A stretch of 64,000 nt of DNA from Streptomyces sp. NBC_00102 (GTDB taxonomy: Bacteria; Actinomycetota; Actinomycetes; Streptomycetales; Streptomycetaceae): NCBI RefSeq assembly GCF_026343115.1, contig NZ_JAPEMC010000001.1, positions 3,162,001 through 3,226,000 on the forward strand. Reading direction: 5' to 3'. Shown here piece by piece: positions 6,541 to 25,691 of this stretch; position 1 is the first letter of the stretch; each line of letters opens with the position of its first letter. The notes below the pieces were generated by a model. It did no database searches and was not told the DNA's origin. It saw nothing but the letters and a program-made list of their open reading frames with translations. The translations under genes and the position numbers were made by a program.

Positions 6541-7692
6541 TCAGCCGGAGTTCAGCGCCTCGGCGATGTCGTCCAGGATCGCGCCGGCCTTCTCCCGGGC
6601 ACCCGCGCGGTCACGGCAGGCCAGGGTCAGCTCGGTGCTGTCGCCGACGCGGCAGGCGCTCAGGAACATCTCGGCGTACGGGACCAGCATCGGCAGGGTG
6701 AGGAAGGAGCAGGCGCGGAAGGCGGGCGTCGAGAAGGCCCGCGGGTCGACCTCGCCGTGGTCGGAGATGATCGCCGTGCAGGGGAAGCGGGTGCCGTCGA
6801 ACGCACGGGCCTCGCTCAGGTTGTTGGCGAACGGGTTGTCGCGCAGGAAGTCCCGGTCGAGTACGGCGACCTCGGTCTTGGCGATCAGGGCGCGCATCAG
6901 CGTGGAGTGGACGCGTTTCCAGGTGTCGTCGCGGCGCAGGTCGAGGACGAGCTGCGAGGTCAGGTTCGCGGTGGAGCGCGTCGTGGTGTCGTGGCGGCGC
7001 AGGTCCACCGGGACGATCAGGCGGCCGGTGTCCGTGGTGAGGTGGCGGGAGAGCGCGGCTGCGGCGCGCGCGGTGACCCCGGACGGGGTGGCGGGCACCC
7101 GGCGGCTCAGCCACAGGGGCTGCCCGCCCGCGGGCCCGTCGCCGATGAACGCGGGCAGTCCCGTGAGACGGGTGGCCGCGGGGGCCGGGCGGACGTCGCC
7201 CGCCGCCGTACGGAAGTGCGCGTCGTCCACCGTGTCCGGACAACCGGCCGGCTCCTCGCCGCGCAGGGCCCGGAAGAGATCCGCGATCCACTGCCGCAGA
7301 CCGCGCCCGTCGGTGACGATGTGGCTGGCCCGGACGACCAGCCGGGTGGTCCCGGCGCCCCGGATCAGGCCCAGTTCGCAGACGGGTCCGGTGACCACCG
7401 ACAGGTCGCGGTGGAAGAACGGGTGGTCGAGACCGGTGCCGTCGGGCAGCTCCACGACCTCGGGGACGGTGCCGTCGGCGCGCCACAGCGCGCCCCGGCG
7501 GCGCACCGCGAGGCCGGGACTCGCCTCGGTCGCCGCGCGCGCGGCCCGGCGCAGCGCGTCCGTGTCGAGAGCGCCTTCCCCCTCGATCACCATCTGGATG
7601 AGCTGCGGGGTGCCGGTCGCGGCGGCGTTGAGGTAGCCCCGTTCGATCGGGGAGATGCGGCGGGTGTAGGGCCGCACGGCGGTGAGGGTCAT
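6541..7692 (-). CDS. Stand-alone condensation-type acyltransferase (PapA/alcohol acetyltransferase-like)
   Basis: A 383-residue protein with the chloramphenicol-acetyltransferase/NRPS-condensation signature H124-I-V-T-D128-G129. H124 would be the general base for ester or amide formation between a carrier-bound acyl group and an alcohol or amine. It is shorter than an NRPS condensation domain (about 430-450) and closer to PapA5-like free enzymes. The ATG at 7692 overlaps the PPTase-like stop by 4 bp and is the last gene of the long operon. Inferred role: joining the polyketide chain to an amino-acid unit, or a late acylation. Confidence 0.75.
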   Translation of the reverse strand: MTLTAVRPYTRRISPIERGYLNAAATGTPQLIQMVIEGEGALDTDALRRAARAATEASPGLAVRRRGALWRADGTVPEVVELPDGTGLDHPFFHRDLSVVTGPVCELGLIRGAGTTRLVVRASHIVTDGRGLRQWIADLFRALRGEEPAGCPDTVDDAHFRTAAGDVRPAPAATRLTGLPAFIGDGPAGGQPLWLSRRVPATPSGVTARAAAALSRHLTTDTGRLIVPVDLRRHDTTTRSTANLTSQLVLDLRRDDTWKRVHSTLMRALIAKTEVAVLDRDFLRDNPFANNLSEARAFDGTRFPCTAIISDHGEVDPRAFSTPAFRACSFLTLPMLVPYAEMFLSACRVGDSTELTLACRDRAGAREKAGAILDDIAEALNSG

Positions 7693-8345
7693 TCCTCCTC
7701 CAGGTGGTGGAAGCGCACCGGTGCGGGTGCGTCGCAGGCGAGGGCGAGGTGCAGGGGCGGTTCGCCCTCGGGCCGCAGGACGACGGAACGCACCTCGTAG
7801 GTCGGGGTGTTCGTGGGCCGCCAGCCCGGCCGCCACTCGGGCAGCCGGGTTCCGGCGAAGGTCTCCTTCGTCAGGTGCGAGGCCTTGATGAGCGCCTCGC
7901 ACTCGGCGAAGTCCCTGATGGTGGCCGGCTGTTCACGTCCGAGCAGGTCGCCGAGCCAGCGCAGGGCGTACGGCCGGTCACGCTCGTCCTGGAGGTCCAC
8001 TCCGACCGTGCGGCCGGCGGGCGCGAAGGCCACGGCGCTGTACGTGCCGACGTGCGCCACCGAGACGGACAGGCCCAGGGCGGGCACCGACCAGCGCTTG
8101 TGACCGTCCCGCGCCAGGTCTTTGGCGGTGATCCGGATTCCGTACGTCGTACCGAGCGCCCCGACGATCAGGGAGCGGCCCGAGGCGGACAGCCGGTGCC
8201 CCATCCGGTCGCGGGGGAGCCCGCGGTGGCGGGAGACCAGGACGTTCACCGTCTCCCCCACCTCCTCCACCGCCGCCGGCCCGTCGGGCGCCAGCGTGTA
8301 TCCGGTCAGTCCCGCGTCGAGGAGCAGGCCCATCAGGGCGCCCAT
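7689..8345 (-). CDS. 4'-phosphopantetheinyl transferase superfamily protein
   Basis: A 218-residue protein with a VGVDLQDE Mg-binding segment and a FAECEALIKA segment, matching the conserved V-G-[IV]-D and W-x-x-KEA-x-x-K motifs of Sfp/AcpS enzymes in a degenerate form (Glu-Cys-Glu in place of the usual Lys-Glu). It would load the two carrier proteins of the cluster with the phosphopantetheine arm. Its ATG shares one base with the KS-CLF stop (TGATG). The family is probable; activity is uncertain because the second motif is atypical. Confidence 0.65.
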   Translation of the reverse strand: MGALMGLLLDAGLTGYTLAPDGPAAVEEVGETVNVLVSRHRGLPRDRMGHRLSASGRSLIVGALGTTYGIRITAKDLARDGHKRWSVPALGLSVSVAHVGTYSAVAFAPAGRTVGVDLQDERDRPYALRWLGDLLGREQPATIRDFAECEALIKASHLTKETFAGTRLPEWRPGWRPTNTPTYEVRSVVLRPEGEPPLHLALACDAPAPVRFHHLEEE

Positions 8346-10660
8346 CACGCCTCCGGGTCGAGGACGGCCGCCGCGTAGCTGCCGCCGTACGCGAAACTCG
8401 ACAGCAGTACCGGGCCGGGGGTGCCGGCACCGGTGAGGGCGGCGACCAGGCCGAGGGCTCCCGCGCTGCCGTAGGTCTCGCCGAGCAGGGCCTTGGGGGC
8501 GAAGACCGGCCGGCCTTCGAGGCCGGTGTGGCGCAGGGCCGCCCGCTGTGCCAGGTCGACCAGCGGGTGGCCGGACGCGGCGGAGACGACCGTGCCGATC
8601 CCCTCCGGGCCGAGGTCCGCTTCGGCGAGCGCGGAGCGCAGGGAGCGTCCCCATGCCTCGCCGTCCCTGGCGATGCGGCCGATGCCGGCCGGTTCGCCAC
8701 TGGCGCCGAAGCCGCGGACCCGCGCCAGGACGTCGGCGCCCCGGTCCCGGGCCGCGTCCCGGCTCTCCAGCAGGATCGCGGCGGCCCCCTCGCTGAGGAC
8801 GGTACCGGTACGCCCGCCGGGTACGACGTGCGCGGACCGGGCGTAGCCGGGCAGCGCCGCCTGGGTGGCGAGGGCCTGCTCGGGGAACTCGTCGGCGACC
8901 ACCACCATGATCCGTTCCGCGGCGCCGCGGGCGATGACCCGGGCGGCGAGCTGGAGCGCGAGCACGGAGCTGGTGCCGCCGTTGGCGATGGTCGCGGTGT
9001 AGCCGCGGAAGCGGTGCAGCATCGCGACGTGGCCGGCGGCGGCGTTGACGACGGTGTTGGCGAAGAGGGACGGGTTGGCACCGGTGATGCCCGAGCGCAC
9101 CACGCCCTCGTGGAACCGCAGGACCGAGGTCACCGGGCCGTACCCGGTGGCGAAGACGACACCGGTCGACTCCGCCACGTCCCGCGACGGTTTGCCGTGG
9201 CGGGCGTACAGGTCGTTCACGGCGGACGCGGCGAGCAGGCTCAGCGGGTCCATGCGACGGGCCCGGCTGGGGTTCGTACCGCGTGAGGCGGCCTTGATGT
9301 CGACCCGGCCGACGGGCACCCGGCCGACGCCGGGAACCTCCTCGAAGGTCTCGAAGCAGGGCCGCCCCTCGGCGAAGGCCGCGGCGATCGCCTCGGTACC
9401 GCCGGCCGATCCGGCCAGGCCGGCGACTCCGGTGACGACCACCTCCTGGACGGCCTCACGGCGTGGCGGCCTGGAGCCGGCACGGCCGGGCCGGTTGATG
9501 ACGACGGAGGCGTTGTTGCCGCCGAAGGCGAAGGAGTTCGACACCACGACCTCGGGTCGCGCGTCGCGTCCGGTGTCCGGGATGACGTCCAGGCCGTACG
9601 GCGAGGCGACGCCCCGGGTGTTGATGGTCGGCGGCAGCGTGCCCCGGTCGACGGCCAGGGTGCTGACCACGGCCTCGACCGCGCCGGCCGCACCGAGGGT
9701 GTGGCCGAGGATCGACTTGGTGGAGCTGGCCGCCGGTATCTCCATGCCGAACAGGAGCTTCAGCGCCTTGGGTTCGGAGGCGTCGTTGGCGGGGGTGCCG
9801 GTGCCGTGCAGGTTGAGGTAGTCCACGTCGGCGGGGGTGAGGCCCGCCGTGTCGAGGGCCTGTGCCATGGCGGCGCAGGCGCCCTTGCCGCTGGGGTCGG
9901 GCGCGGTCTGGTGGTAGCCGTCGCAGGACAGGCCGTATCCGCCGAGCTCCGCGAGGACACGGGCGCCGCGCGCCTCGGCCCGCTCCACCGACTCCAGGAC
10001 CATGAATCCGGCGCCCTCGCCGAGGGTGAGTCCGGTGGAGGCGGAGAGCGGTGAGCACGGCTCGGCGTCCAGCGCGCCGAGCGCGCTGAACCCGTAGGCG
10101 GACAGCTCCGCCAGCGGGTCGACACCACCGCACACGACGTAGTCGACGTCGCCCTTCCACAGCAGCTCGGCGGCGTAGCCGAGGGCGACGGCGCTGGCGG
10201 CGCAGGCGTTGGAGAGGACCACGCGCGGGCCGCGCAGATCGAACTCCGCCGCGATGTAGTCGCCGACGCAGGGCAGTTGGGAGGCCACGGCCTGCGCGAC
10301 GTCCAGCCTGCCCTCCAGGACGAAGGTGCGGTGGGTGGCCTCCAGCGTCGGCATGGCGCCGAGGCTGGAGCCCACGACGACGGCCACCCGGTCGCGGTCC
10401 ACGGCCGAGAGGTCGAGGCCGCTGCCGTGCAGGGCCTCGCGGATCGCGGTGGCCGCGAGCGCGTAGCAGCGGTCCAGGTCGGCGGGCTGCTCGGCGGTGA
10501 CCATGCCCGCCCAGTCGGTGAGCAGCTCGGAGGTGTCGAAGAGGGTGTTGGTGCGGATGCCGGTGGTGCCGGCCGCGATCGACGACCAGCTCTTCTCCAC
10601 GTCGTCACCGGCTCCGGTGATCAGTCCCAGGCCGGTCAGGGCGATGTTCGCAGGTGTCAT
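8345..10660 (-). CDS. Type II PKS ketosynthase and chain-length factor fused in one polypeptide
   Basis: One uninterrupted 771-codon frame. Residues 1-395 form an active ketosynthase: Cys153 in SNACAAS, His285 in NLHGTGTP and His320 in SILGHTLG. After a short Arg/Pro linker (about 393-404), residues 405-771 form a second thiolase-fold copy in which Cys is replaced by Gly562 (ANGGTSS) and the second His position is Glu (LLGETYG). That is a chain-length factor. Normally these are two proteins encoded by adjacent genes. No internal stop lies between the halves. With FabG-, FabZ-, ACP- and MAT-like genes in the same operon it should build a reduced, polyene-type chain. The start is the ATG at 10660, 12 bp after the GcvT-like stop. 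Confidence 0.88.
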   Translation of the reverse strand: MTPANIALTGLGLITGAGDDVEKSWSSIAAGTTGIRTNTLFDTSELLTDWAGMVTAEQPADLDRCYALAATAIREALHGSGLDLSAVDRDRVAVVVGSSLGAMPTLEATHRTFVLEGRLDVAQAVASQLPCVGDYIAAEFDLRGPRVVLSNACAASAVALGYAAELLWKGDVDYVVCGGVDPLAELSAYGFSALGALDAEPCSPLSASTGLTLGEGAGFMVLESVERAEARGARVLAELGGYGLSCDGYHQTAPDPSGKGACAAMAQALDTAGLTPADVDYLNLHGTGTPANDASEPKALKLLFGMEIPAASSTKSILGHTLGAAGAVEAVVSTLAVDRGTLPPTINTRGVASPYGLDVIPDTGRDARPEVVVSNSFAFGGNNASVVINRPGRAGSRPPRREAVQEVVVTGVAGLAGSAGGTEAIAAAFAEGRPCFETFEEVPGVGRVPVGRVDIKAASRGTNPSRARRMDPLSLLAASAVNDLYARHGKPSRDVAESTGVVFATGYGPVTSVLRFHEGVVRSGITGANPSLFANTVVNAAAGHVAMLHRFRGYTATIANGGTSSVLALQLAARVIARGAAERIMVVVADEFPEQALATQAALPGYARSAHVVPGGRTGTVLSEGAAAILLESRDAARDRGADVLARVRGFGASGEPAGIGRIARDGEAWGRSLRSALAEADLGPEGIGTVVSAASGHPLVDLAQRAALRHTGLEGRPVFAPKALLGETYGSAGALGLVAALTGAGTPGPVLLSSFAYGGSYAAAVLDPEA

Positions 10661-10671
10661 GACCCGGCCCT

Positions 10672-11715
10672 TCAGGCGATCTTGACGGTGAGGGAGCGGG
10701 CGATGACCCGGGGCAGGGTCGCGGTGCGCACCGGGCGCTCGTCCCCCGCCTCGTCCGTGGCGGTCAGCTCCAGTCCCGGCACCCAGAAGGGGTTGTCGAG
10801 CAGGGCCAGGACCAGCTCCTCCTCCGGGTTGGCGGCCGGCGCCTGGTGCAGGACGGTGCCGACCTCCTGACCGGCCGCGGTGACCGGCGTACCGGCCGCG
10901 AAGCGGCTGCCGACCGGGGCGACGAGCGCGGTGAGCCGGGCCTCGGAGCCGGTCGGTGCGGTCAGCTCGTCGGAGCCGTGGAACTCGCCGATCCGGCTCC
11001 AGTCGATCATCCAGGCCAGGTCGGCCTCGCCGACGCTCAGTTCGCCGAACCCGGTGCTGTACACGCCCATCCCGGCCTCGGCCTGCACCCGGGTGAGGCC
11101 CTCCTCGCCGATCTCGGCGCCGCCCTGGCCGGCGAGGGCCGCGAGCACCGCGTCGTGCGCGGCCTGCGGGGCGTCGGACAGCAGCAGGTAGCCGTACTCC
11201 CCGGTGGTACCGACGCGGGCCAGGTGGGCGGTGGCGCCGGGAACGTCGAGGGTGGACTCGGTGACGGCGTGCAGGGTCAGGCCGGAGATGTCGAAGTCCA
11301 CGAAGCCGGCCGCGACCGACCAGGCCACGGGGCCCTCGAAGGCGGTGGCGCCCCAGCCGTCGGGGGAGATCTCGACGGTGACGCCGGCGGAGGTGTCGAA
11401 CCCGCCGAGGTAGGAGCCGAGTTCGTCGGCCGTGACGGCGGTGCGCGGCAGCAGCCACGACTCCTCGCCGATCTCGAAGTGCAGCAGGATCGCGAACGGC
11501 GTGCCGTCGGCGTTCAGCGCCAGCACCTCACGGACGGAGTCGGGCTCCACGTAGTCCGCGGACTTGGCGAGGAAGCCGTCCAGGAAGGTCAGCCGGTCGT
11601 CGCCGGTCAGCCGGACCAGCGGGGCGGTGACGCGGTAGGCGCCGACGGCGGTGCGCAGGGTGGCGTAGTCCTCGGTGGCGGTGCGGACGGCCGGGGCGAT
11701 GGTGGTGGCGGTCAT
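10672..11715 (-). CDS. GcvT-like folate-binding aminomethyltransferase family protein
   Basis: A 347-residue member of the glycine-cleavage T-protein/YgfZ family. It has the N-terminal LTGDDRLTFLDGFLAKS segment and the R-x-G-x2-GE-x-GY motif (ARVGTTGEYGYLLL). No glycine cleavage P, H or L gene is present, so it is an orphan. Relatives demethylate or transfer one-carbon units with tetrahydrofolate. A GAAAGG ribosome site precedes the ATG at 11715. Its place between the GNAT fusion and the KS-CLF suggests a tailoring role. The reaction is unknown. Confidence 0.72.
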   Translation of the reverse strand: MTATTIAPAVRTATEDYATLRTAVGAYRVTAPLVRLTGDDRLTFLDGFLAKSADYVEPDSVREVLALNADGTPFAILLHFEIGEESWLLPRTAVTADELGSYLGGFDTSAGVTVEISPDGWGATAFEGPVAWSVAAGFVDFDISGLTLHAVTESTLDVPGATAHLARVGTTGEYGYLLLSDAPQAAHDAVLAALAGQGGAEIGEEGLTRVQAEAGMGVYSTGFGELSVGEADLAWMIDWSRIGEFHGSDELTAPTGSEARLTALVAPVGSRFAAGTPVTAAGQEVGTVLHQAPAANPEEELVLALLDNPFWVPGLELTATDEAGDERPVRTATLPRVIARSLTVKIA

Positions 11716-11744
11716 GATCTGTCGTTGCCTTTCGGGTCGGTGGT

Positions 11745-13724
11745 TCAGAAGGAAAGGGGTATGTCGTGTACGGAGAGCAGCCAGGAGCTCTCCCGTGCGG
11801 CGGACACTCCGCCGACGAGCAGGCCCGACGGCGAGGCGCGCAGGACGAGTTCGTCGTGCGGGCCGGCGGCGGGAGCGCAGTGCAGCCACCGCCCGTCGGA
11901 GAGCCGGACGGATGCCCTGCGGGCCCACACCTGGCGGAAGTCACCGGAGTTCAGCTCCCAGCGCGCGCCGTCCGAGTCGAGGACGACGGCCGTCTTGAGG
12001 GGCGTCTGCGGGGTGAGCCAGACGACGGTCTCGCGGTCCGTCCCGCTCGGGTCCGTCCCGCTCGCCCGGACGTCGACGCGGAGCCCGTCGCCGGCGGCAG
12101 CGATCTCCCAGTCGAGGCCGGATTCCGGGGCGTGGAGGCCGAGCGGGTGCTTCTCCTCCCAGGTGCCGCATGGCACCCCCCAGCCGAGCCCCGAGGCCCG
12201 GTCGTGGCGGCTGTTCTCCTGGGTCACCCACAGGCCCGCGGACCAGTGGGGGTTGTAGGCGTAGGAACGGGTGCGGGGGTAGGGGCTGCGCAGCACCTTG
12301 GTGGTGCCCTCCCGCCAGACGGTGACGCCTCCCGCGGCGGCGTGCGTCTCCAGGCGGCGCGTGGTGTCCGCGCCGCTCGGGCGGATGACGGTGCGCATCC
12401 GGGCCACGCCGTCCGCGCCGGGTTCCGGGCGGCGCTCCAGGAGCGTGCTGTGGACCAGCCGCAGGGGCCCGTCCACCGGCAGCGAGACGCGTACGTCCCG
12501 CCCTTGCCAGGTCAGCTCCGCGCCTTCGGGGACGGTCCGGGAGGCGGCGACGATCTCGGAGGCGTCGCGCACCCCCTGGCCCAGCCCGATCGGGTGGGTC
12601 TGCCCTTCCGCGTCGGTGAAGACGCCCTGGCGCAGGCCCACGGTCTGGAAGATCCGGCCGCTCGCGGAGCCGGTGCGGGTGAACTCCTGGAGCAGACCGG
12701 TGCCGTCCAGGGTGAAGGTGCCGGTGACCGTGGCGTCGCCGTCCCGCTCGGTGACCCGTACCCCGCCCTCGACGGGCTCCAGGGTGAGGTCGCGGGGCTC
12801 GCCCTCGCGCCAGCCGGCCGGGCGGTCGGCCCGGCAGCTCGGCCAGGTGGAGACGAGTACCGGGCCGCGGTGCCCGGCCACGAGGACGCTCAGCGTGCCG
12901 TCCTCCCCGTCGACCTCGCAGGTGAGGCCGGACTCGGTGAACCGGTACGGCGCCACCCCGCGCGGGGCCCTCACCTCGTACGGGGGCCGGGTGATGCGCA
13001 GCGCCCGCTCCGTGCCGTCGGCCTCGATGAGGCGGGCCTCGCGCACGGCGCCCCGGTCCACGTCCACGGACGCGTCGATCCGGAACTCGCCGAGCGCCAG
13101 GCTGTAGTCGACGGTGCGCACCCCGTCCACCACCCGCACGTCCGAGCGCAGCTCGTCGTCGCGGGACTCCGTGACGGAGGCGAAGCTGGTCAGGCTGCCG
13201 AGGGCCGCCATGGCCCGCTCGCCCAGGTCGGCGAGGACGCCGCGTACGACGAGCGGGATGTAGTTGTGCAGCTCCACGTTGCCGTCCTCACCGGGGACCG
13301 CCCGGCCCACCGACACGCAGCCGACGCGCCGGTAGAGCCGGAAGGCCACGGTGTTGGCCGGGTTGACGGTCAGCCGCAGCACCAGGCAGCCGGTGCGCAT
13401 CATCCACTCGACGGCCTCGGTGAACAGCCTTCCGGTGACCAGGCCGCCCCGGTGGGCGGGATGGACGAAGAACATGTCCGCGATGAGTTCGCCCGCCCGG
13501 CCGGAGCGCCGGCCGGTGTTGTGGAAGAGGCCGAACGTTCCCACGAGCCGGCCGTCGTCCTCGGCCACCAGGAACGTCGCCGTCTCCCGCTCGGCCAGCT
13601 CGTGGGCGAGTTCCGTACCGCTGACCCCCCCGGCGACCGGGTTGGGGTTGTCGCGGTGCCGGTTGTAGAGCTCCGCGATGGCGTGCGCGTCGCCCTCCTG
13701 GTACGGGCGGATCGTGAGGGCCAT
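11745..13724 (-). CDS. GNAT acetyltransferase fused to a large beta-rich domain of unknown function
   Basis: A 659-residue protein. Residues 1-155 are a GNAT domain (LIADMFFVHPAHRGGLVTGRL acetyl-CoA loop, then LTVNPANTVAFRLYRRVGC). The remaining 490 residues are rich in short beta-strand-like, Trp- and Arg-containing segments (YNPHWSAGLWVTQENSR near the end), and I recognise no family. A strong AGGAGGT site precedes the ATG at 13724. It lies between the FabZ-like and GcvT-like genes. It may acetylate an amine such as diaminopropionate, but that is only suggested by context. Confidence 0.7.
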   Translation of the reverse strand: MALTIRPYQEGDAHAIAELYNRHRDNPNPVAGGVSGTELAHELAERETATFLVAEDDGRLVGTFGLFHNTGRRSGRAGELIADMFFVHPAHRGGLVTGRLFTEAVEWMMRTGCLVLRLTVNPANTVAFRLYRRVGCVSVGRAVPGEDGNVELHNYIPLVVRGVLADLGERAMAALGSLTSFASVTESRDDELRSDVRVVDGVRTVDYSLALGEFRIDASVDVDRGAVREARLIEADGTERALRITRPPYEVRAPRGVAPYRFTESGLTCEVDGEDGTLSVLVAGHRGPVLVSTWPSCRADRPAGWREGEPRDLTLEPVEGGVRVTERDGDATVTGTFTLDGTGLLQEFTRTGSASGRIFQTVGLRQGVFTDAEGQTHPIGLGQGVRDASEIVAASRTVPEGAELTWQGRDVRVSLPVDGPLRLVHSTLLERRPEPGADGVARMRTVIRPSGADTTRRLETHAAAGGVTVWREGTTKVLRSPYPRTRSYAYNPHWSAGLWVTQENSRHDRASGLGWGVPCGTWEEKHPLGLHAPESGLDWEIAAAGDGLRVDVRASGTDPSGTDRETVVWLTPQTPLKTAVVLDSDGARWELNSGDFRQVWARRASVRLSDGRWLHCAPAAGPHDELVLRASPSGLLVGGVSAARESSWLLSVHDIPLSF

Positions 13725-13830: not shown

Positions 13831-13842
13831 CTCCGGGGGAGG

Positions 13843-14364: not shown

Positions 14365-14657
14365 GCGGCGGTCTCCCGGTCCTCGATGAAGTCGACCAGG
14401 GCGTTGATGGAGCCGAAGGCCTCGAAGTCGTCGTCGCTGATCAGCACGTCGAACTCGTTGTTGACCATGACGACGATCTCCAGCGTGTCCAGCGAGTCCA
14501 TCTCCAGGCCCCGGCCGAACAGCGGCTGGTTGTCGGAGACGAAGGCCGGCTCGACCTCGAGACCGAGCCGGTCGATGATCATCGACTTGACCTTCATGTT
14601 CTTGCCGAGACGGGCCTCGGCCTGGGTGCGGATGTCCTCGAAGGTGGCGGTGGACAT
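14361..14657 (-). CDS. Acyl carrier protein of the type II PKS
   Basis: A 98-residue acidic carrier protein with Ser55 in GLEMDSLDTLE as the phosphopantetheine attachment site. It has a perfect AGGAGGT ribosome site before the ATG at 14657 and is coupled to the dehydratase gene. It lies between the ketoreductase and dehydratase genes, so it is the likely carrier for chain extension by the KS-CLF. Confidence 0.92.
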   Translation of the reverse strand: MSTATFEDIRTQAEARLGKNMKVKSMIIDRLGLEVEPAFVSDNQPLFGRGLEMDSLDTLEIVVMVNNEFDVLISDDDFEAFGSINALVDFIEDRETAA

Positions 14658-17538: not shown

Positions 17539-19838
17539 TCCGGTACCTTTCTGCTGATCTGGAGCCGGAGTTCACTGACGTAGCGCTCGCCGTCGGCCCC
17601 CGTGAGCCAGGAGTCCCGGGGGTGCGGCAGCGGCTCGCTGAGGATCACGGTCGCGTCCGCGTCGAGGCGCCGGGTGCGGCGGACGAGGTTGGCGAAGGAG
17701 AGCACGAGGGTGGGACTGGTGAAGTCGACCAGGGACGGCTTCGTCTCCTGCGGGAACTTCACGAAGGCCTGGTCGGGCAGCCCGCTCGCGCGCAGCCACC
17801 GCCGTACGGCCAGGTAGTCGCCCGCTCTGTCGGGCTTGACGGCGAGCGGGATCTCCCCGGCCGGCACCCGCCAGGTCTCCCGGAACAGGACGAGCCCGTC
17901 GAGGCTGACGCGGGGGGCGTGCGGCCGGTCGAGCCCGATCTTGAAGGCGTCCGCGGCGATGATGGACACCGGGACGGCGAGCAGTTCGGCCATGCTCCAC
18001 CCGCGGCCGTCGGGGGTGGTGGCGGTGACCGTGCCGTCCCGCTCGGACAGGGTGATCGCGGTGGCCGGGTCGATCCGGGACCGGTCGTCGAACGGCGCCC
18101 GGGTGAACCCGATGAGTCGGTCGCCCGCGCCGATGGGGGCGGGCACCATGCGGCCGCTGTTGCGCTTCCAGTCGACCGGGAGCAGCGGTACCAGGCGGGG
18201 CGCGCCGATCGCCGCGTTCACCTTGTCGCGCAGGGAGCCGGCGTCGCTGGTCCAGTCGAGGAACGGCAGGTCGCAGGTGGCGAGGCAGGCGTGCAGCTCG
18301 CCGAGGACGACGGTCGGGTCCCCGTCCGCCTCCTGGACCACCTGGAGGTCGGGGCTGTGCAGGGCGAGATGGGGCGAGCGGACCGGACCGGTGGCGAAGA
18401 CGGCGCGCGCCCGCCGCTCGATGTCGTCCACCCGCAGCGCGACCGGCTGGACGCCGGCCGGATCGAGATCGAGGACCTCGCGCCACTTGCGGGCGAGTTC
18501 CCTCGTCGCGGTGTGCACGGGCCGGGCGCCTTCGCCGCCCCAGAACAGGCCGAGCACCTGTGTCCACACGTCGGCGAGGGTGACGGGCGACCTCCGCGGC
18601 GCGGCGGCCCGGACGAAACCGGCCACCTCCGCCTCGACGAGCTCCACCAGTCGGTTGCCGAACCAGTCCGCCGCGTCGGCCACCAGGGCGAGCGGGCGGG
18701 CGATCCCGTCGAGGAAGCCGGTGCCGACCTCGACCTGGCAGTCCCGCACCGCGTCCTGGTAGCAGAGAGTGCGGCCCGCGTACGCCTTGCCCTCGTCGCG
18801 GGAGGCGTCGAGGCCGGTGATCTTGACGAAGTACGCGTCCAACTCGTCCAGCCGGGCAGCGAGCTGATCGGGATCGGTGGCGGCGTCGATGGCGTCGCGG
18901 TGCCGGTCGAGTCCGGTGAGGACCGTCTCGAAGCGGACGAACAGCTCGGGGTCGGCGACGGCGGCGACCCGCCGTCGCAGGACCCGCTCGGCCCGCACGT
19001 CGACCGGGATGTTGGCGTCCCAGGTCAGCACGCGCTGCTTGAGGAGCCGGGTGAGGATCTTCTCGACGCGTGGCCGTGCGCCCTCGGTGTCCCAGCCGTC
19101 CTCCCGTACGAGGGCCTCGACGATCGCGGCACCGTTGCGCTCCCCGTCCGCGTGGCCGAGGACCTGCCGGTCCTCCGGGCGCAGCCGCGTCACGCGTCCG
19201 CCCGGCAGCAGCAGCCGGTCACCGTCGAGGTGGACGTCGGGGCGGGGCAGCGGCGGGAACCACCAGCGTGCACCGGGCTGGGCGGTCATCCAGTCCGCGA
19301 CGGCGGCCAGCGCCCAGCGTTCGAAGTACGTACGGCTGCGCGCCACCAGCCGCTCGCCGTGGTCCACCGCGAGGCCCCCGGGCGCCCGCCCGACGGACAT
19401 CCAGGCGGCCGGACCGAAGAAGCCGATGGTCTCGGCCTTGGCGCAGTAGCGCAGCCAGTACATGGCGAGGGTGCGCTCCCGCTGCTTGCGCTTGGACTCC
19501 TTGCCCGTGCCGGCGGCGAGCGCGTCGAGCACGCGGTAGACGGTGCGGTTCTGCCAGGCGATGGCCGTGCGGACCTTCTCGTCACCGGCGAGTGCGGCCA
19601 GGCGGTGCGTTTCGGCCGCGCTGTCGGCGAGGTAGGCGACGGTGAAGGCGTCCTGGTCCCCGCGGTCGGCCGCGGCGGCCGCCGCCGGCCCGCCGAGCAG
19701 GTCGAGTCCGGAGGCGGGGAAGCCTGCACTGCGCAGCAGCCCGACGCCCCACATGTGCCACTCGCTGTCGCCGAGGCGCCGGGTGGGCCGGAAGTCGGCC
19801 CAGTCGTGCTCGCGCAGCGCTTCACGGGTGCTGGTCAC
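17535..19838 (-). CDS. Stand-alone lantibiotic dehydratase-like (LanB) protein
   Basis: A 767-residue protein resembling the N-terminal (tRNA-dependent transfer) part of LanB enzymes. The WLRYCAKAETIGFFGP core is at about 126-143, RTLCYQDAVRDCQVEVG is mid-protein, and the C-terminal third carries PRVSLDGLVLFRETWR, FVKFPQETKPSLVDF and a closing SELRLQI. True LanB proteins transfer glutamate from tRNA to Ser/Thr of a peptide; PEARL relatives add amino acids to peptide ends. I find no precursor-peptide gene nearby, so the acceptor may be a carrier-bound or free small molecule. The GTG at 19838 overlaps the aminotransferase stop; the frame stays open far upstream but only as a shadow of that gene. 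Confidence 0.75.
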   Translation of the reverse strand: MTSTREALREHDWADFRPTRRLGDSEWHMWGVGLLRSAGFPASGLDLLGGPAAAAAADRGDQDAFTVAYLADSAAETHRLAALAGDEKVRTAIAWQNRTVYRVLDALAAGTGKESKRKQRERTLAMYWLRYCAKAETIGFFGPAAWMSVGRAPGGLAVDHGERLVARSRTYFERWALAAVADWMTAQPGARWWFPPLPRPDVHLDGDRLLLPGGRVTRLRPEDRQVLGHADGERNGAAIVEALVREDGWDTEGARPRVEKILTRLLKQRVLTWDANIPVDVRAERVLRRRVAAVADPELFVRFETVLTGLDRHRDAIDAATDPDQLAARLDELDAYFVKITGLDASRDEGKAYAGRTLCYQDAVRDCQVEVGTGFLDGIARPLALVADAADWFGNRLVELVEAEVAGFVRAAAPRRSPVTLADVWTQVLGLFWGGEGARPVHTATRELARKWREVLDLDPAGVQPVALRVDDIERRARAVFATGPVRSPHLALHSPDLQVVQEADGDPTVVLGELHACLATCDLPFLDWTSDAGSLRDKVNAAIGAPRLVPLLPVDWKRNSGRMVPAPIGAGDRLIGFTRAPFDDRSRIDPATAITLSERDGTVTATTPDGRGWSMAELLAVPVSIIAADAFKIGLDRPHAPRVSLDGLVLFRETWRVPAGEIPLAVKPDRAGDYLAVRRWLRASGLPDQAFVKFPQETKPSLVDFTSPTLVLSFANLVRRTRRLDADATVILSEPLPHPRDSWLTGADGERYVSELRLQISRKVPE

Positions 19839-21073
19839 GCGGCCCGCCTCCCGAGGTCCACGTCGGCGTCCGCGTCGGAGTGCCCGTCGGTGCCGGTGCC
19901 GGCGTCCGCGCCTCTCAGCGCGGCCGCGAGCCGGGCGACCCCCTCGGGGATGCGCTTGCGCGGGACGTTGCTGAAGCAGAGCCGCAGCGCGTCGCCGCAC
20001 TCCCCGTCGAGCCCGAAGTGGCTGCCGGGGACGTAGGAGACGCCCTGTTCGGCCGCGGCGCGCGCGAAGCGGCCGGTGTCGGCGCCGCCCTCGTGCCGCA
20101 GCCACAGGTAGAAGCCGCCGTCCGGCCGCTGCCACCGCCAGGGGCCGTCGGTCCCCAGCTGCTCGTCCAGCGCGTCGGCCATCAGGCCGCACCGCTCCCG
20201 GTAGCGCTCGCGGTAGGCGTCGATCAGGCTGTCCCAGCCACCGCGGGCGTGGAACGCGGCGAGCGCGGCCTGGGCGAACGCCGACGGCGACAGGGCCATC
20301 ACCTCGGTCGTACGGCGCAGCCGCTCCGCGACCTGCTCGGGGGCGGCGATCCAGCCGCAGCGCAGTCCCGGCGCGAAGACCTTGGAGAAGGTGCCGAGGT
20401 AGACGACGTTCGAAGGGTCGATGCCCTGGAGGGTCTGGACCGTGCCGCCGTCGAAGCCGAGCAGCCCGTAGGGGTTGTCCTCGACGATCAGCAGGTCCAG
20501 TTCCCGTGCGGCGTCCACCAGTTGGTGGCGTCGCTCGACGGACAGGGTGGCGCCGGTGGGGTTCTGGAAGGTCGGGTTGCAGTACAGCATCCGTACCCGC
20601 TGCCCGTCGGCCCGCAGCCGGGCCACGGTCGCCCGCAGCGCCAGCGGGTCGAGCCCTTCGGCGTCCTCGGGGGCCCCGTGCAGGCGCAGTCCCGCCGTAC
20701 GGAAGGCGGTGGCCGCTCCCGGGTAGGCGGGGGTCTGGCACAGTACGGTCTCCCCCGGTGCGGCGAGGCCGAGGCCGAGGGCCAGCAGTCCCATCTGGGA
20801 TCCGGCGGTCGGCACCAGGTTCGCGGCGTCGGTGCTGCCGCCCTCGCGGGCCATCAGGTCGGTGATGGCGGGGACGAGGGCCTTGGCCACGTGCGGGGTG
20901 CTGTACTGGAGCGCGATCCGGCCGCCGATCCGGGTCAGCCGGGCGAACTGCTCGGAGAGTTCCTTCAGGGGCAGCAGGTCGAGGTCCGGCAGGCCGCCGG
21001 CGAACGAGATCAGATCACCGCCCCGTTCGAAGAGCTGCGGCATCTCGGCCGCGGGTCTTATGTCGGTCCACAT
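19835..21073 (-). CDS. PLP-dependent aminotransferase (fold type I, MocR/2-aminoadipate type, no DNA-binding domain)
   Basis: A 412-residue class I/II aminotransferase. It has the N-terminal FAGGLPD segment, the NPTFQNPTG substrate/PLP loop (about 166-174), EDNPYG with the cofactor Asp, and the Schiff-base Lys231 in GTFSKVFAPGLRCGW. The ATG at 21073 starts 5 bp after the small carrier-protein stop; ATA and AGA, both very rare in Streptomyces, are codons 5 and 6. It has an unusual Asp-rich C-terminal tail (GTGTDGHSDADADVD). It could make or use an amino acid that feeds the ligase/carrier pair. The substrate is unknown. Confidence 0.85.
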   Translation of the reverse strand: MWTDIRPAAEMPQLFERGGDLISFAGGLPDLDLLPLKELSEQFARLTRIGGRIALQYSTPHVAKALVPAITDLMAREGGSTDAANLVPTAGSQMGLLALGLGLAAPGETVLCQTPAYPGAATAFRTAGLRLHGAPEDAEGLDPLALRATVARLRADGQRVRMLYCNPTFQNPTGATLSVERRHQLVDAARELDLLIVEDNPYGLLGFDGGTVQTLQGIDPSNVVYLGTFSKVFAPGLRCGWIAAPEQVAERLRRTTEVMALSPSAFAQAALAAFHARGGWDSLIDAYRERYRERCGLMADALDEQLGTDGPWRWQRPDGGFYLWLRHEGGADTGRFARAAAEQGVSYVPGSHFGLDGECGDALRLCFSNVPRKRIPEGVARLAAALRGADAGTGTDGHSDADADVDLGRRAA

Positions 21074-21078
21074 GACGG

Positions 21079-21333
21079 TCAGCTCCCCGACAGCGCGTGC
21101 GCGCCGCTCGCCAGCTGCTCGTGCACGAGCCTCAGCAGGCCGGCCGACGAGGTGAGCGAGAGGTCGGCGAGCGCGTCGGGGTCCAGCTCGATGCCGAACC
21201 TGTCCTCGACGGCCATGATCAGGGCGACGGTGTGGAGCGAGTCCACGCCGAGGTCCACGAGCGGCACTTCGGAGCTGGTGACCTGCACGGCGCATATCTC
21301 CTCTACGAGCTGGTCAAACTGCGACTGGTCCAT
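21079..21333 (-). CDS. Small carrier protein paired with the acyl-AMP ligase
   Basis: An 84-residue carrier protein with Ser32 in DLGVDSLHTVALIM. It overlaps the ligase gene by 20 bp, the usual arrangement for a dedicated A-domain and carrier pair. It differs in sequence and neighbours from the PKS ACP at 14361-14657, so it probably holds the starter or an amino/acyl building block rather than the growing chain. Confidence 0.88.
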   Translation of the reverse strand: MDQSQFDQLVEEICAVQVTSSEVPLVDLGVDSLHTVALIMAVEDRFGIELDPDALADLSLTSSAGLLRLVHEQLASGAHALSGS

Positions 21334-22858
21334 GGGAGCTCCCTGTGAGTGCGGCGGGGACGGGGGTGACGGCCGTGGCGACGGCCTCGGCGGGGGCGGC
21401 GGCGCCGGCCCGGAGCAACTGGGCGACGGCCACGCGGTCGGGTTTGCCGTTGGCGGTCAGCGGCACGGTGTCGAGCGGGACGATCCCGTCGGGAAGGCGG
21501 GCGTGGTCCAGAAGGCGGGTGAGAGCGGCGCGGACCTCCTGCAGGGTGAGATCCGTCTGCACGGCGAGCAGGAACGGAGCGTCCTCGTCGGCGGGGCGCG
21601 GGGCGACGGCGGCGTACACGCCGGGTACGCGCTCGGCGGCGAGTTCGATCTCCGACAGGCCCATCCGCACGCCGCGCCGTTTGATCACGTCGTCGTCGCG
21701 GCCGACGAAGTACAGCAGGCCGTCGGCGTCGATCCGGCCCTGGTCACCGGTGTGGAGCTCCAGGGAGCCGTCGGCCAGGCGCACGTACCGGCTCTGCCGC
21801 TCCAGCGGGACTCCCCAGTACCCGGCCATGACGGTCTCGCCCCGGACGACGATCTCGCCCACCTCGCCCGGCGGCAGGGTCCGCCCGTCCGGCCCGACCG
21901 TCCGTACCCGGAGACCGGGGATGGCTCGGCCCACCGAGTCGGGATGACGCTCGTAGAGCGCCGGGTCCAGGACCGAGATGCGCTTGCACTCGGTCATCCC
22001 GTACATCGAGGCGAAGACGGAGCCCGGGAAGGCGTCGAGCAGTTCGCGCATCACGGTCGGGCTGGGCCGGGCACCGGTGTTGGTGAACAGCCGGACCTTG
22101 GTGGCGCGGCGCAGCTTCTTCTGGAGCAGCCCGAGGATCTGCGCGAGGGAGGGCACCAGCGGGACGACGGTGACCCCGTGGCGCTCGATCACCCGGATCA
22201 GTCCGAGGTCGCCCCCGCGGTCGGTGAGCACCAGGGTCGAACCGGTCAGCGTGCACAGCAGGGCCTGGTACAGGCCGTAGTCGAAGGAGAGCGGCAGTCT
22301 GCACAGCACCACGTCGTCGGCGCGGTAGCCGAGGGCGGCGTCGACGGCGCGGACCGCGGCGAGGATCTGCCGGTGCGGGCAGACGACGCCCTTGGGACGG
22401 CCGGTGGTGCCGGAGGTGTAGATCAGCAGGGCGACCGCGTCGTCCGCGACCTCGGCAGTGGTGTGGTCGGCGGGCGTGTGCCCGATCTCCCGTACGGCCC
22501 GCTCCACCTCCACGGTCGACCGGGCGGCGGCACCCGCGGTGGGCGGGCAGACGGCGAGAGCGGCCGTGCAGTCCCGCACGATGTGGTCGATCTGGTGGTC
22601 CGTGAGGTCGGGGTGGACCGGCACGAACACCGCTCCGATACGGAACGAGGCCCACAGGAGGGCGAGGAAGGTGCGGTCGCCGCCGCCGGCGTAGACCACG
22701 CGGTCCCCCGCGCCCACTCCCTGGCCGCGCAGCCAGCCGGCCGCCCGGTCGGTCTCGGTGCCCAGCTCCGCGTAGGTCAGCGGTCCTGCGGCGTCGACGA
22801 GGGCGAGGTGCCCGGGGCGCTCGGCGCGGGCGTGTGCGAACAGCTCAGACACCGGCAT
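21314..22858 (-). CDS. Acyl/aminoacyl-AMP ligase
   Basis: A 514-residue ANL-family enzyme with the P-loop LIYTSGTTGRPKGVV, the core YGMTECKRIS, the hinge-region TGDQGRIDADGLLYFVGRDDDVIKRRG and the catalytic Lys in TANGKPDR. It should activate a carboxylic acid with ATP and load the carrier protein encoded next to it. The ATG at 22858 overlaps the MAT stop by 14 bp; a GTG six bases further in is possible. I did not derive substrate specificity. About 20 residues after the catalytic Lys are a low-complexity Ala/Val tail. Confidence 0.88.
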   Translation of the reverse strand: MPVSELFAHARAERPGHLALVDAAGPLTYAELGTETDRAAGWLRGQGVGAGDRVVYAGGGDRTFLALLWASFRIGAVFVPVHPDLTDHQIDHIVRDCTAALAVCPPTAGAAARSTVEVERAVREIGHTPADHTTAEVADDAVALLIYTSGTTGRPKGVVCPHRQILAAVRAVDAALGYRADDVVLCRLPLSFDYGLYQALLCTLTGSTLVLTDRGGDLGLIRVIERHGVTVVPLVPSLAQILGLLQKKLRRATKVRLFTNTGARPSPTVMRELLDAFPGSVFASMYGMTECKRISVLDPALYERHPDSVGRAIPGLRVRTVGPDGRTLPPGEVGEIVVRGETVMAGYWGVPLERQSRYVRLADGSLELHTGDQGRIDADGLLYFVGRDDDVIKRRGVRMGLSEIELAAERVPGVYAAVAPRPADEDAPFLLAVQTDLTLQEVRAALTRLLDHARLPDGIVPLDTVPLTANGKPDRVAVAQLLRAGAAAPAEAVATAVTPVPAALTGSSHGPVAV

Positions 22859-23795
22859 GGACGAGGTCCTCCTTCCAGGCACCCGCGGCACCGATCCGGG
22901 CCCGCACCTTGTCGAGGTCCCGGGGGGCGGTGACGCAGACGACGGCCAGCTCGGGCAGCTGGCGCTTGAGGATGCCCGCGAGGGTGCGGGCGGGCGGCAG
23001 ACAGACCGTCACCTCGGGTGCGATCCGGCCGAGCGACTCCAGGCAGAGGTCCCAGCGCACCGGCTTGACCACCTGCTCGACCAGGCGGCGGCGGATGTCG
23101 TCCGGTTCACGGACGACCGAACCGTCGGCGTTCGACAGGAGGGACCCGGTCGGCCGCCGGAACGGTGTCCGTTCCGCCGCCGCGGCGACGGCCCGGCGCG
23201 CGGACTCCATGTACGGGGTGTGGAAGGCGCCGGCGACCTGGAGCAGCTTGACCGTGGCGGAGGGCGGCGGGGCGGCGACGAGCCGTTCGAGGCCGTCCGT
23301 GGGTCCCGCCGCGACGATCTGGCCGGGGCCGTTGAACGTGGCCGCGTACAGGCCCAGTTCGCGGATGCGGCCGAGCACGTCGGCCTCCTCGCCGCCGACC
23401 ACGGCCGCCATCGAGGTGGGCACCTCCGCACAGGCCGCGGCCATCGCCCGGCCACGCACCGCGGCCAGCCGCACGGCGTCGGCGGGGGCGAGCGCTCCGG
23501 CGTACACCGCCGCGGTCAGCTCCCCGACCGAGTGCCCGGCAGCCACCAGGGGCCCGTCCGGCTCGGCCGTGGCGAGCGCCTCGTGGGCGAGGAGCCCGGC
23601 GGCGACCAGCAGCGGCTGGGTGTTCTCGGTACGGGCGATCTCCGCGGCCGGCGCCTTGCCGCCGAGGTGCACGAGGTCCACATCGGCGGCCTCGGACCAG
23701 TCGCGCAGGCGCTCGGCGTGCACCGGGTCGCGCAGCCAGCCGGCCAGCATGCCCGGGGTCTGGGAGCCCTGTCCCGGCACAACGAATGCGTACAT
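22845..23795 (-). CDS. FabD-type malonyl-CoA:ACP transacylase
   Basis: A 316-residue acyltransferase starting VVPGQGSQTPGM, with the nucleophile Ser89 in GHSVGEL and the catalytic His in GAFHTPYM near residue 192. It would supply malonyl units to the PKS ACP. The ATG at 23795 has an AAGGAG site about 10 bp upstream. A cluster-dedicated transacylase is unusual for aromatic type II systems, which usually borrow FabD, but is seen in reducing type II clusters. Confidence 0.9.
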   Translation of the reverse strand: MYAFVVPGQGSQTPGMLAGWLRDPVHAERLRDWSEAADVDLVHLGGKAPAAEIARTENTQPLLVAAGLLAHEALATAEPDGPLVAAGHSVGELTAAVYAGALAPADAVRLAAVRGRAMAAACAEVPTSMAAVVGGEEADVLGRIRELGLYAATFNGPGQIVAAGPTDGLERLVAAPPPSATVKLLQVAGAFHTPYMESARRAVAAAAERTPFRRPTGSLLSNADGSVVREPDDIRRRLVEQVVKPVRWDLCLESLGRIAPEVTVCLPPARTLAGILKRQLPELAVVCVTAPRDLDKVRARIGAAGAWKEDLVHAGV

Positions 23796-23946: not shown

Positions 23947-24738
23947 TCAGTTGCGGCCGGTGCTCTTGCGGAAGCGGCGGATACCCATGAAGGCGAAGGC
24001 CGCGAACCAGGCGACGGTGTTGACCACAGCCATCGCGAGGCTGGAGTGCTCACCGCTGAAGGAGTAGCCCTCGGTCAGGCTGTAGCGGGCGAGTGTGGAG
24101 ACGCCGAACATCGGCGAGTAGCGGGAGATCTCCAGCATGGTGCCGGAGAGCGGGATGAAGAGATTGCCGAGGAAGGCGAGCGCGGTCATGGTCAGACCCG
24201 GCATGTGCATCACGGTGTCGGGCTTGAGAGCGAGCCCCAGCGTGATGCCGAGGGCGGCGAAGACGGCCGCGCCGAGCCACGCCACCAGCAGGGACGTCAC
24301 CCACACCGTGGCCGTGGCCTCCACCCCGGTGAACACACCGAGCACACCCACGACGGCCACCGGCACCGCCGCCATGATCACGGAGGACAGCACCTTGACG
24401 AAGAGGTAACCGGGAGGGGCGAGCGGGCTGAGCGCCATGGTGCGCATCCAGCCGGACGCCTTCTCCACGGAGATGGTGGCCGCCGAGCTGACCGCCGCGG
24501 TCGCCGCTCCGTACACGGCGATGCCGGTCATCATCCAGGCCGCGAAATTGCCGTGCGGGAGGGTGGCGCCGTCGGGTTCGGTACGGAAGAGCGCCAGGTA
24601 GAGGACGGCCGGCAGGAGCAGCGTGAAGATCGTGGTCTGCCGGTTGAAGCGGCGGCGCAGTTCGTAGCCGATGAAGACGGAGTTGACTCCGCTGAACGGC
24701 GAGGTCCGCACCTCGTGGGTGGCTGACGCGGCGCTCAT
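23947..24738 (-). CDS. ABC-2 type transporter permease
   Basis: A 263-residue membrane protein with six predicted helices and the ABC-2 conserved segment after the second helix (SVEKASGWMRTMALSPLAPPGYLFVKVLSS). It pairs with the ATPase gene upstream (4-bp ATGA overlap) to form a DrrAB-like exporter. Probable role: export of, or immunity to, the product. A 151-bp spacer with repeated GGGCGTGAAAGGC words separates it from the MAT gene. Confidence 0.9.
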   Translation of the reverse strand: MSAASATHEVRTSPFSGVNSVFIGYELRRRFNRQTTIFTLLLPAVLYLALFRTEPDGATLPHGNFAAWMMTGIAVYGAATAAVSSAATISVEKASGWMRTMALSPLAPPGYLFVKVLSSVIMAAVPVAVVGVLGVFTGVEATATVWVTSLLVAWLGAAVFAALGITLGLALKPDTVMHMPGLTMTALAFLGNLFIPLSGTMLEISRYSPMFGVSTLARYSLTEGYSFSGEHSSLAMAVVNTVAWFAAFAFMGIRRFRKSTGRN

Positions 24739-25691
24739 CGGGTGCCCCCTTCGGTACGGCTGTGGTGGGTGAGGGTCATGAATGCCTCTTCGAGGCTGCG
24801 CGGGGTGACCTCGATGTCGGTGGCGGACGTCCGCCCGATCAGCAGGCGCAGCAGCGCGTCGGAGTCGGTGGTGTCGAAGTGGTACCGCCCGCCGCGCGGG
24901 GTGCTCGATCGGACGAGGGGGGACTGCGCGAGAACGGCCGCCTCCTGCTCGCCGATCCGCGCCGACACGGTGCGCCCGCTGAGAGCGGACCGCACGTCGG
25001 ACACCGAACCGTCGACGACCACACGGCCCCGGTCGATCATCACCACCCGGTCGGCGAACCGGTCCGCTTCCTCCATGTAGTGGGTGGCGAACATGACCGT
25101 CATGCCGCGCTCCGTGTCCTCACGGACCGTCGCCCAGAACTCCCGGCGGGCGACGACGTCCATCCCGGCCGTCGGCTCGTCGAGGACCAGCAACTCGGGC
25201 CCGGAGAGCAGGGCGAGAGCGAACCGCAGCCGCTGCTGTTCACCGCCGGAGCACTCCGCGACGCGTCGGCCGCGCAGCTGGTCGAGTCCGGCCCGGGCCA
25301 GCACCGAGTCGATGTCGGCACCGGGGTGCAGCGAACCGAGCATCCGCACGGTGGCCTCGACACTCAGGTCGGGCAGCAGCCCGCCCGACTGGAGCACCGC
25401 GGCGACCTGTCCGGAGCGCACCGCCTGCCGCGGCTCACCTCCGAACAGCCGCACCGACCCCTCGTCGGGCCGCGTCAGCCCGAGCAGCATGTCGATGGTG
25501 GTCGTCTTGCCGGCGCCGTTCGGTCCGAGGAAGGCGACGATCTCGCCCTGCCGGATGCGCAGGTCGATGCCGTCGACGGCGGTGAACCGCTCTCCCTTGG
25601 CATCGGTGAACCGCTTCACGACAGAGTCGAGCCTGACGGCTTCCGAGGACGTCACCCCCTCGGACACCTGGCGCGGTCGGGTTTCGATCAT
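24735..25691 (-). CDS. ABC transporter ATP-binding protein (DrrA-like)
   Basis: A 318-residue ATPase with Walker A GPNGAGKTT (about 56-64), the signature CSGGEQQRL, Walker B LLVLDEP and the switch His in MFATHYMEE. The C-terminal 90 residues match the DrrA extension of daunorubicin-type exporters. It is the first gene of the long minus-strand operon; GAGGA lies 9 bp before the ATG at 25691. It acts with the permease at 23947. Confidence 0.93.
   Translation of the reverse strand: MIETRPRQVSEGVTSSEAVRLDSVVKRFTDAKGERFTAVDGIDLRIRQGEIVAFLGPNGAGKTTTIDMLLGLTRPDEGSVRLFGGEPRQAVRSGQVAAVLQSGGLLPDLSVEATVRMLGSLHPGADIDSVLARAGLDQLRGRRVAECSGGEQQRLRFALALLSGPELLVLDEPTAGMDVVARREFWATVREDTERGMTVMFATHYMEEADRFADRVVMIDRGRVVVDGSVSDVRSALSGRTVSARIGEQEAAVLAQSPLVRSSTPRGGRYHFDTTDSDALLRLLIGRTSATDIEVTPRSLEEAFMTLTHHSRTEGGTR

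Follow-up and report, generated by a model that had tools for sequence, protein, structure and literature searches.

Dapdiamides and A 19009 carry an unsaturated acyl group on 2,3-diaminopropionate (Dap), followed by another amino acid, and are made by ATP-grasp-type ligases with no known involvement of a polyketide synthase (PKS). Polyene-forming type II PKSs, such as those for ishigamide and aryl polyenes, combine a ketosynthase–chain-length factor (KS-CLF), a ketoreductase (KR), a dehydratase (DH), and an acyl carrier protein (ACP) without an enoyl reductase, as described in the relevant excerpts of PMC10698177. In VinN-type ligases, Asp or 3-methyl-Asp is activated at its side-chain carboxylate (PMC7756342, PMC11253843, and PMC12186527, cited here and below for their sections on these enzymes). 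Yu and van der Donk put at about two thousand the nonribosomal peptide synthetase (NRPS)/PKS clusters with LanB-like proteins, one of which, SnaE, makes its peptide bond at a carboxylate that is not activated (PMC10769383, likewise cited in part). Here we analyze a gene cluster that shares features with these systems, in a 64,000-nucleotide stretch of Streptomyces sp. NBC_00102 (contig NZ_JAPEMC010000001.1, positions 3,162,001 to 3,226,000; hereafter the window).

We tentatively propose a conserved actinobacterial cluster for an exported polyene–Dap amide, in which the free carboxylate of an Asp-derived starter would be amidated by a LanB-like protein. What the sequences show is the gene set, a fused KS-CLF, Dap enzymes that pass curated cut-offs, active-site residues that are conserved, a gene order shared between genera, and a four-gene block that is present or absent as a whole; from these we infer product, substrates, and enzyme roles.

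Gene Content and Conservation

Domain scans of the window (GC content 73%; host genome 8.6 Mb) delineated a minus-strand operon of 17 genes running from 25691 to 6541 and a major facilitator (MFS) gene after it, together an 18-gene cluster. Each gene class named in the original prediction, made from the same DNA, was recovered on the minus strand at its position; the ABC and MFS exporters it named matched Pfam ABC_tran, Pfam ABC2_membrane, and TIGR00711. Genes overlap or lie at most 54 bases apart throughout the operon, except for gaps of 151 bases before the malonyl transferase (MAT) gene and 118 before the GNAT fusion gene. The gap to the MFS gene is 560 bases from the start chosen by the gene caller (5980) and 287 from the likelier start at 6253, which we prefer and which gives a 548-residue open reading frame (ORF). 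PLP denotes pyridoxal phosphate; "rows" are aligned sequences.

24735..25691, minus: ABC transporter ATPase, DrrA-like (Pfam ABC_tran, 1.8e-29; nearest NCBIfam model drrA, under cut-off); also in genomes G155, G080, and G272
23947..24738, minus: ABC-2 membrane protein (Pfam ABC2_membrane, 7.1e-8)
22845..23795, minus: MAT, FabD-like (Pfam Acyl_transf_1, 2.2e-26; motifs GHSVGE and AFH)
21314..22858, minus: VinN-type AMP ligase, predicted Asp beta-carboxylate loader (VinN 3wvn, 349 bits; Asp/Arg equivalents in 33/33 rows)
21079..21333, minus: small carrier protein for the ligase (Pfam PP-binding, 2.4e-9; Ser in 28/28 rows)
19835..21073, minus: PLP aminotransferase, class I/II (Pfam, 4.3e-36; nearest solved structure 1x0m, 202 bits; PLP Lys in 33/33 rows)
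17535..19838, minus: LanB-like protein, probably PEARL-like and amide-forming (Pfam Lant_dehydr_N only, 3.1e-24; LanB structures in 11/11 model matches at E ≤ 0.001)
16525..17538, minus: SbnA, Dap synthesis (TIGR03945, 392.5 bits against a cut-off of 349.95; PLP Lys in 35/35 rows)
15442..16470, minus: SbnB, Dap synthesis (TIGR03944, 333.8 bits against a cut-off of 326.9)
14693..15445, minus: FabG-like ketoreductase (NCBIfam FabG models; YxxxK motif as YAASK)
14361..14657, minus: ACP (Pfam PP-binding, 3.7e-10; Ser in 36/36 rows)
13843..14364, minus: FabZ-like dehydratase (NCBIfam FabZ, 135 bits against a cut-off of 113)
11745..13724, minus: GNAT domain fused to about 500 residues of beta structure (Pfam Acetyltransf_1; structure model comparison)
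10672..11715, minus: GcvT-like protein without the DD-motif Asp (Pfam GCV_T, 2.8e-14)
8345..10660, minus: fused KS-CLF, 771 residues (KS His residues in 35/35 rows; Cys in 34/35, with one gap)
7689..8345, minus: phosphopantetheinyl transferase (PPTase)-like protein, 218 residues (motif only; no Pfam match)
6541..7692, minus: condensation/PapA5-like acyltransferase (NCBIfam PapA5, 9e-6, under cut-off; H, D, and G of HxxxDG in 33/33 rows)
4607..6253, minus: MFS exporter, DHA2 family (TIGR00711, 248 bits against a cut-off of 230, on the 5980 start; in 28/29 uncut window-type loci)

The cluster recurs widely. From named genomes, 32 loci were chosen by their GNAT fusion, whose presence is therefore no finding; 29 are of the window's type, contig ends truncate L058 and L071, and L086 belongs to another type. 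The MAT, ligase, aminotransferase, LanB-like, SbnA, FabG-like, ACP, FabZ-like, GcvT-like, KS-CLF, PPTase-like, and condensation-like genes each occur in all 29 window-type loci. SbnB and the MFS gene each occur in 28, SbnB not being found in L085, where the sequence covered stops soon after SbnA, and the MFS gene from L078; the ABC genes, which mostly fall beyond the sequence covered, were left uncounted. Collinear clusters are found in named Streptomyces, Kitasatospora, Labedaea, Rhodococcus, Propionibacterium, Pseudopropionibacterium, and Flexivirga, with a KS-CLF up to 97% identical to the window's in named Streptomyces loci. The gene-neighborhood comparison suggested alongside the original prediction gave a near-identical gene order across genera.

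Frequencies were assessed in four genome samples. The LanB-like protein found matches in 56 of 295 genomes of the genus, five of them close (100, 95, 91, 72, and 65% identity, its own genome included) and the next at 34-36%; G155, G080, and G272 carry all 18 genes in the same order, and G147 is a 10.9 kb contig covering LanB to KS-CLF. With the fused KS-CLF as query, 8 of 394 genomes in the class sample matched at E ≤ 1e-100, two of them (its own genome and G539) at 82-100% identity. In the order sample, 13 of 391 genomes matched at E ≤ 1e-120; 11 of these showed 77-100% identity and the other two, of Catenulispora type, 52-53%. The Kitasatospora genus sample gave 14 of 70. The cluster, in one version or another, is present in 14 of the 70 genomes from this genus, which makes an unknown, fairly common natural product likely.

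A Fused KS-CLF in a Reducing Type II PKS

The original prediction had listed KS-CLF without noting a fusion; both are present, with an intact KS triad, and they form a single ORF of 771 residues (8345-10660; best start, ATG at 10660). Near the full length of this query was matched within one ORF in 32 of 35 rows, a total that takes in the window's own sequence and has one genome in it two times. Of the remaining three, L058, at a contig end, covers residues 1-651, L077 covers residues 2-748, and L078 no more than residues 227-768. The KS Cys is kept in 34 of 35 rows, with a gap in one, and both KS His residues in all 35, which leaves Cys-His-His intact; the CLF half lacks the Cys, its two motif-checked columns being Gly and Thr (motif ANGGTSS). 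Best PDB matches for the KS and CLF halves were two chains of one entry, 9s5h_B (271 bits) and 9s5h_C (74 bits), and 6kxd, which we take to be the ishigamide KS-CLF, was the top match for neither. Among the best 120 of 1414 matches, proteins of similar length covering nearly the full query also occur in other actinobacteria and in Bacillota (Thermoactinomyces, Bacillus, Paenisporosarcina, and Desulfotomaculum), at 38-40% identity. The protein is a natural single-chain form of a pair usually handled as a heterodimer.

No enoyl reductase was found in the operon, where the FabG-like protein is the one reductase besides SbnB; one of the Pfam models it matches carries the name enoyl-ACP reductase. 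The combination of KS-CLF, FabG, FabZ, and ACP without an enoyl reductase agrees with the original prediction of a reducing, polyene-type type II PKS, and an enzyme set of this kind would be expected to yield a polyene.

Two other arrangements of fused KS-CLF genes were seen, in the six remaining loci of the class sample. L095, L097, L098, L099, and L100 hold a different cluster type, with a fused KS-CLF of 772-807 residues beside one or two separate KS genes, a FabZ-like gene, and FabG. A Streptomyces-genus locus (L096:8452-14691) carries MAT, FabG, ACP, FabZ, a GcvT-like protein (27%), and a fused KS-CLF without the GNAT fusion.

A Probable Dap Core and a Variable Ligase/LanB Block

SbnA and SbnB both exceed the NCBI curated cut-offs for Dap synthesis, and the PLP-binding Lys60 of SbnA is kept in 35 of 35 rows. 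The two genes are retained in uncut window-type loci at the frequencies given above even where they have moved: in L080 and L085, SbnA lies beyond the MFS gene and is 39-44% identical to the window's. With SbnA also present in four simpler variant loci, the Dap synthesis originally proposed emerges as a constant part of the cluster.

These simpler variants suggest what is constant. A 37 kb stretch of Catenulispora (G681) holds SbnA, MAT, FabG, ACP, FabZ, the GNAT fusion, the GcvT-like protein, KS-CLF, and an ABC ATPase with a membrane-protein neighbor, as well as a PPTase-like/SbnA-like fusion, SbnB, and an RPE65-family oxygenase; it contains no match to the window's ligase, carrier, aminotransferase, LanB-like, or condensation-like protein. 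Three Kitasatospora-genus genomes (G952, G945, and G987) have the same core with PPTase-like and condensation-like proteins and a different AMP ligase, one that includes a carrier domain in G945; in G945 and G987, SbnB is present outside the core. The VinN-type ligase, its carrier, the aminotransferase, and LanB are jointly missing from all four stretches. Among the 70 Kitasatospora-genus genomes, LanB matched at E ≤ 1e-120 in 11, exactly the 14 with a fused KS-CLF minus the three of simpler type. By these sequence comparisons, the four genes behave as one block beside a constant core of PKS and SbnA. Because the simpler relatives keep PKS and SbnA without the block, polyene and Dap look like the core of the pathway, with Asp loading and LanB as an add-on; natural cluster types with and without the block make this division of labor directly testable.

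The RPE65/carotenoid-oxygenase-family gene of G681 (L114:8714-10096, E 1.1e-113) and SbnB share a strand and are 32 bases apart. Enzymes of this family cleave conjugated polyenes, and its position beside SbnB fits a polyene product, at this one locus; the other Catenulispora contig (L086), at 10.8 kb, is not long enough to show whether the gene is present.

All four variant loci also encode a second SbnA-like protein (L114:11109-12587; L134:10053-10952; L136:10078-11013; G987:C18:20567-21496, L138/L139) in which Glu replaces the PLP-binding Lys, whereas the first SbnA keeps Lys in all four. In G681 the second copy is fused behind the PPTase-like protein. It appears to be a dead paralogue retained in the cluster.

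The Ligase, Its Carrier, and the LanB-Like Protein

Among PDB proteins, VinN (3wvn) was the ligase's best match, with 349 bits where the next other protein scored 234. The substrate's amino group is read in VinN by Asp230 and its alpha-carboxylate by Ser299/Arg331, and activation takes place at the beta-carboxylate (PMC7756342, PMC11253843); AfcQ, which has the same Arg, activates L-Asp (PMC12186527). By an alignment whose residue numbering was read by hand, the equivalents of Asp230 and Arg331 are D193 and R293, invariant in 33 of 33 rows. The VinN residues are not matched exactly elsewhere: K330 corresponds to Lys in 30 rows and Gln in three, and Phe231 and Ser299 correspond to Tyr194 and Thr261 in all 33, both conservative changes. 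Because the Asp and Arg equivalents are invariant, we predict that the ligase loads Asp, not Dap, through its beta-carboxylate (isoaspartyl loading). The small carrier scored above 60 bits in 23 window-type loci and weakly in four Rhodococcus loci; in L078 and L085 it was found only by comparison of called genes. A scan of 13 second-tier LanB loci for VinN-type ligase motifs found ligase motifs in just three, none VinN-like, which says little.

In the LanB-like protein, Lant_dehydr_N is the sole Pfam family matched, and no elimination domain was matched at E 0.01. Its structure model (mean pLDDT 87.9) found 11 PDB matches at E ≤ 0.001, all LanB proteins (MibB, MadB, TbtB, NisB, and GodF), and its profile matched 6ec7 at 1.4e-12. 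There is little room between the operon genes for a carrier or precursor peptide gene, short ORFs not having been searched for precursors. A lanthipeptide pathway was considered and rejected, as neither an elimination-domain nor a cyclase family was matched in the operon (Pfam). By analogy with LanB-like proteins of other assembly-line clusters, the protein is probably a PEARL-like amide-forming enzyme. Paired LanB-like proteins about 5 kb apart, 31-34% identical to the window's, occur in clusters with AMP ligases at L044, L045, L047, and L048 of the same genus.

Candidate Joining and Accessory Enzymes

The model of the GNAT fusion matches amino-acid acetyltransferases, and its residues 380-655 match 3k25 and 3bga; its structure matches are mostly GNAT chains, with about 250 to 380 barely covered, and the protein had no match in a plasmid collection. 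The GcvT-like protein belongs to its family by profile match (1yx2, 4.7e-20) and has no Asp at the aligned DD-motif place, where the Asp of GcvT aminomethyltransferase is catalytic. A PDB profile search with the condensation-like protein returned four weak matches, none to a condensation-domain fold. In the PPTase-like protein, D117, Q119, E150, and K154 are invariant in 12 sequences, and no Pfam family, ACPS included, was matched; Sfp-type phosphopantetheinyl transferases usually have Glu where this protein has Gln.

Proposed Product and Alternatives

In the pathway we tentatively favor, MAT, ACP, fused KS-CLF, FabG, and FabZ would build a conjugated polyene, while SbnA and SbnB would make L-Dap. 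The VinN-type ligase would place Asp, via its beta-carboxylate, on the small carrier as the starter, leaving the alpha-carboxylate unactivated. The polyenoyl chain would be joined to Dap by the GNAT fusion, the condensation-like enzyme, or both; the LanB-like protein would amidate the starter alpha-carboxylate with an amino acid from aminoacyl-tRNA; and the ABC and MFS proteins would export the product. If this is correct, an aminoacyl-tRNA-using family familiar from the biosynthesis of peptide antibiotics is here the partner of a discrete type II PKS, on a chain that is extended at one end and receives its amide at the opposite end.

Several observations weigh against this proposal. It assigns no step to the GcvT-like protein or to the latter half of the GNAT fusion. 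The stand-alone condensation enzyme of the original prediction retains HxxxDG but has lost the first His of HHxxxDG, which is kept in 0 of 33 rows (Ser in 28, Asp in four, Thr in one) against 33 of 33 for the second His, Asp, and Gly; its gene also has no match in the G681 stretch, which excludes it as the universal joiner of Dap. In neither the G952 stretch (34 kb) nor the short contig L086 was SbnB seen. Although the enzyme set leads one to expect a polyene, the fused KS-CLF is similar to FabF as well. Nor can any specificity for aminoacyl-tRNA or amino acid be read for the LanB-like protein.

An unlikely version gives the Asp block a fumaryl-type starter. The aminotransferase would convert the isoaspartyl-carrier to an oxaloacetyl thioester, a beta-keto thioester, which FabG and FabZ would turn into a fumaryl thioester for the fused KS-CLF to extend to a polyenedioyl chain. 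LanB would then amidate the free carboxyl end with a tRNA-derived amino acid and Dap would join at the thioester end, giving a polyenedioic acid bis-amide; amide formation at the two ends of the polyketide would thus fall to two unrelated systems.

The original prediction had the ligase and carrier activate Dap itself, with the condensation enzyme joining it to the polyene. The Dap genes and the ligase do share one operon, and the beta-amino group of Dap could be bound by the VinN-type Asp230. Yet the Arg that would hold a second carboxylate is invariant, and Dap has only one; moreover, variants with SbnA have no such ligase, which argues that Dap is used independently of it. We consider Dap loading distinctly unlikely, and this part of the original prediction was not upheld.

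Slightly less credible again is a route in which isoaspartate would be turned into a beta-alanyl unit by the ligase, the carrier, and a PLP enzyme that decarboxylates it, in the manner of macrolactam or bolagladin pathways, to give a polyene with a beta-amino acid. The PLP enzyme gene does come after the carrier gene, but its product is a class I/II aminotransferase, outside the separate PLP decarboxylase family of VinO and BtrK, and decarboxylation would also strip the free carboxylate needed by LanB. In favor of this route, VinN-type ligases usually feed such decarboxylation (PMC7756342).

That the LanB-like protein is instead a true dehydratase, or a glutamyl transferase acting on a small-molecule hydroxyl, is improbable: it does have the fold of the LanB glutamylation domain, but no elimination domain was matched at E 0.01, and SnaE, the one tested relative type in an NRPS/PKS cluster, forms an amide (PMC10769383). 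Least probable is the mere proximity of two or more unrelated pathways, which the absence of the Asp/LanB block from otherwise intact clusters would allow but which tight spacing and the same order from Streptomyces to Rhodococcus and Flexivirga contradict.

Genomic Surroundings

A UbiA prenyltransferase and a histidine kinase/response regulator (window 1787-4613) were rejected as members, since they adjoin the cluster only in close relatives; all three are present in G155 and in 6 of 29 window-type loci, and L078 has a more distant kinase and regulator (32-33%). Upstream lie glycan-degradation genes (window 25936-38421), encoding a ricin-lectin/GH16-like protein, a 2263-residue protein with GH92, CBM6, fn3, and PAP2 domains, and a GH76 protein. 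A tRNA scan of the window found one tRNA-Ser alone, at 62719.

Relation to Known Systems

The component families are known, and the cluster is a hybrid of the reducing type II PKS class. We found no description of the gene combination, the free-standing fused KS-CLF, or the block structure in open-licence literature, which is weak evidence of absence and accords with the original view that no characterized cluster has this gene set. Of that interpretation, the polyene-type PKS, Dap, and the exporters stand, and Dap as ligase/carrier substrate does not; it did not include the fusion of KS and CLF, the precedent of amide formation by LanB-like proteins of NRPS/PKS clusters, or the broad conservation.

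Highly reducing type II PKSs share with this cluster discrete KR, DH, and ACP proteins, a KS with Cys-His-His, a CLF without Cys, and the lack of an enoyl reductase; their KS and CLF are separate, whereas here the two are fused and Dap genes, a VinN-type ligase, and LanB are added. Didomains of polyunsaturated fatty acid synthases likewise hold KS and CLF in one polypeptide, but as part of a megasynthase rather than as a free-standing protein of 771 residues. Window proteins matched NCBIfam Amc models under cut-off. The cispentacin-type AmcB-H system resembles the cluster in its discrete KS with a partner, ACP, hot-dog enzyme, aminotransferase, and adenylating enzyme loading a dicarboxylic acid, but AmcH loads 2-oxoglutarate, and the excerpts describing the system include no KR or Dap genes (PMC10698177).

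The VinN, AfcQ, and BolO systems share the VinN-type ligase, with Asp230 and Arg331 kept, and the free-standing carrier; there, as far as the cited sections describe them, a PLP decarboxylase comes next, whereas here a class I/II aminotransferase and LanB take its place (PMC7756342, PMC12186527, PMC11253843). SnaE of the threopeptin pathway shares the LanB glutamylation fold, the unmatched elimination domain, an assembly-line cluster, and an unactivated carboxylate, which in our case is predicted; it serves a modular NRPS-PKS and a ureido dipeptide, in contrast to the discrete type II PKS and predicted Asp-type starter of the cluster described here (PMC10769383).

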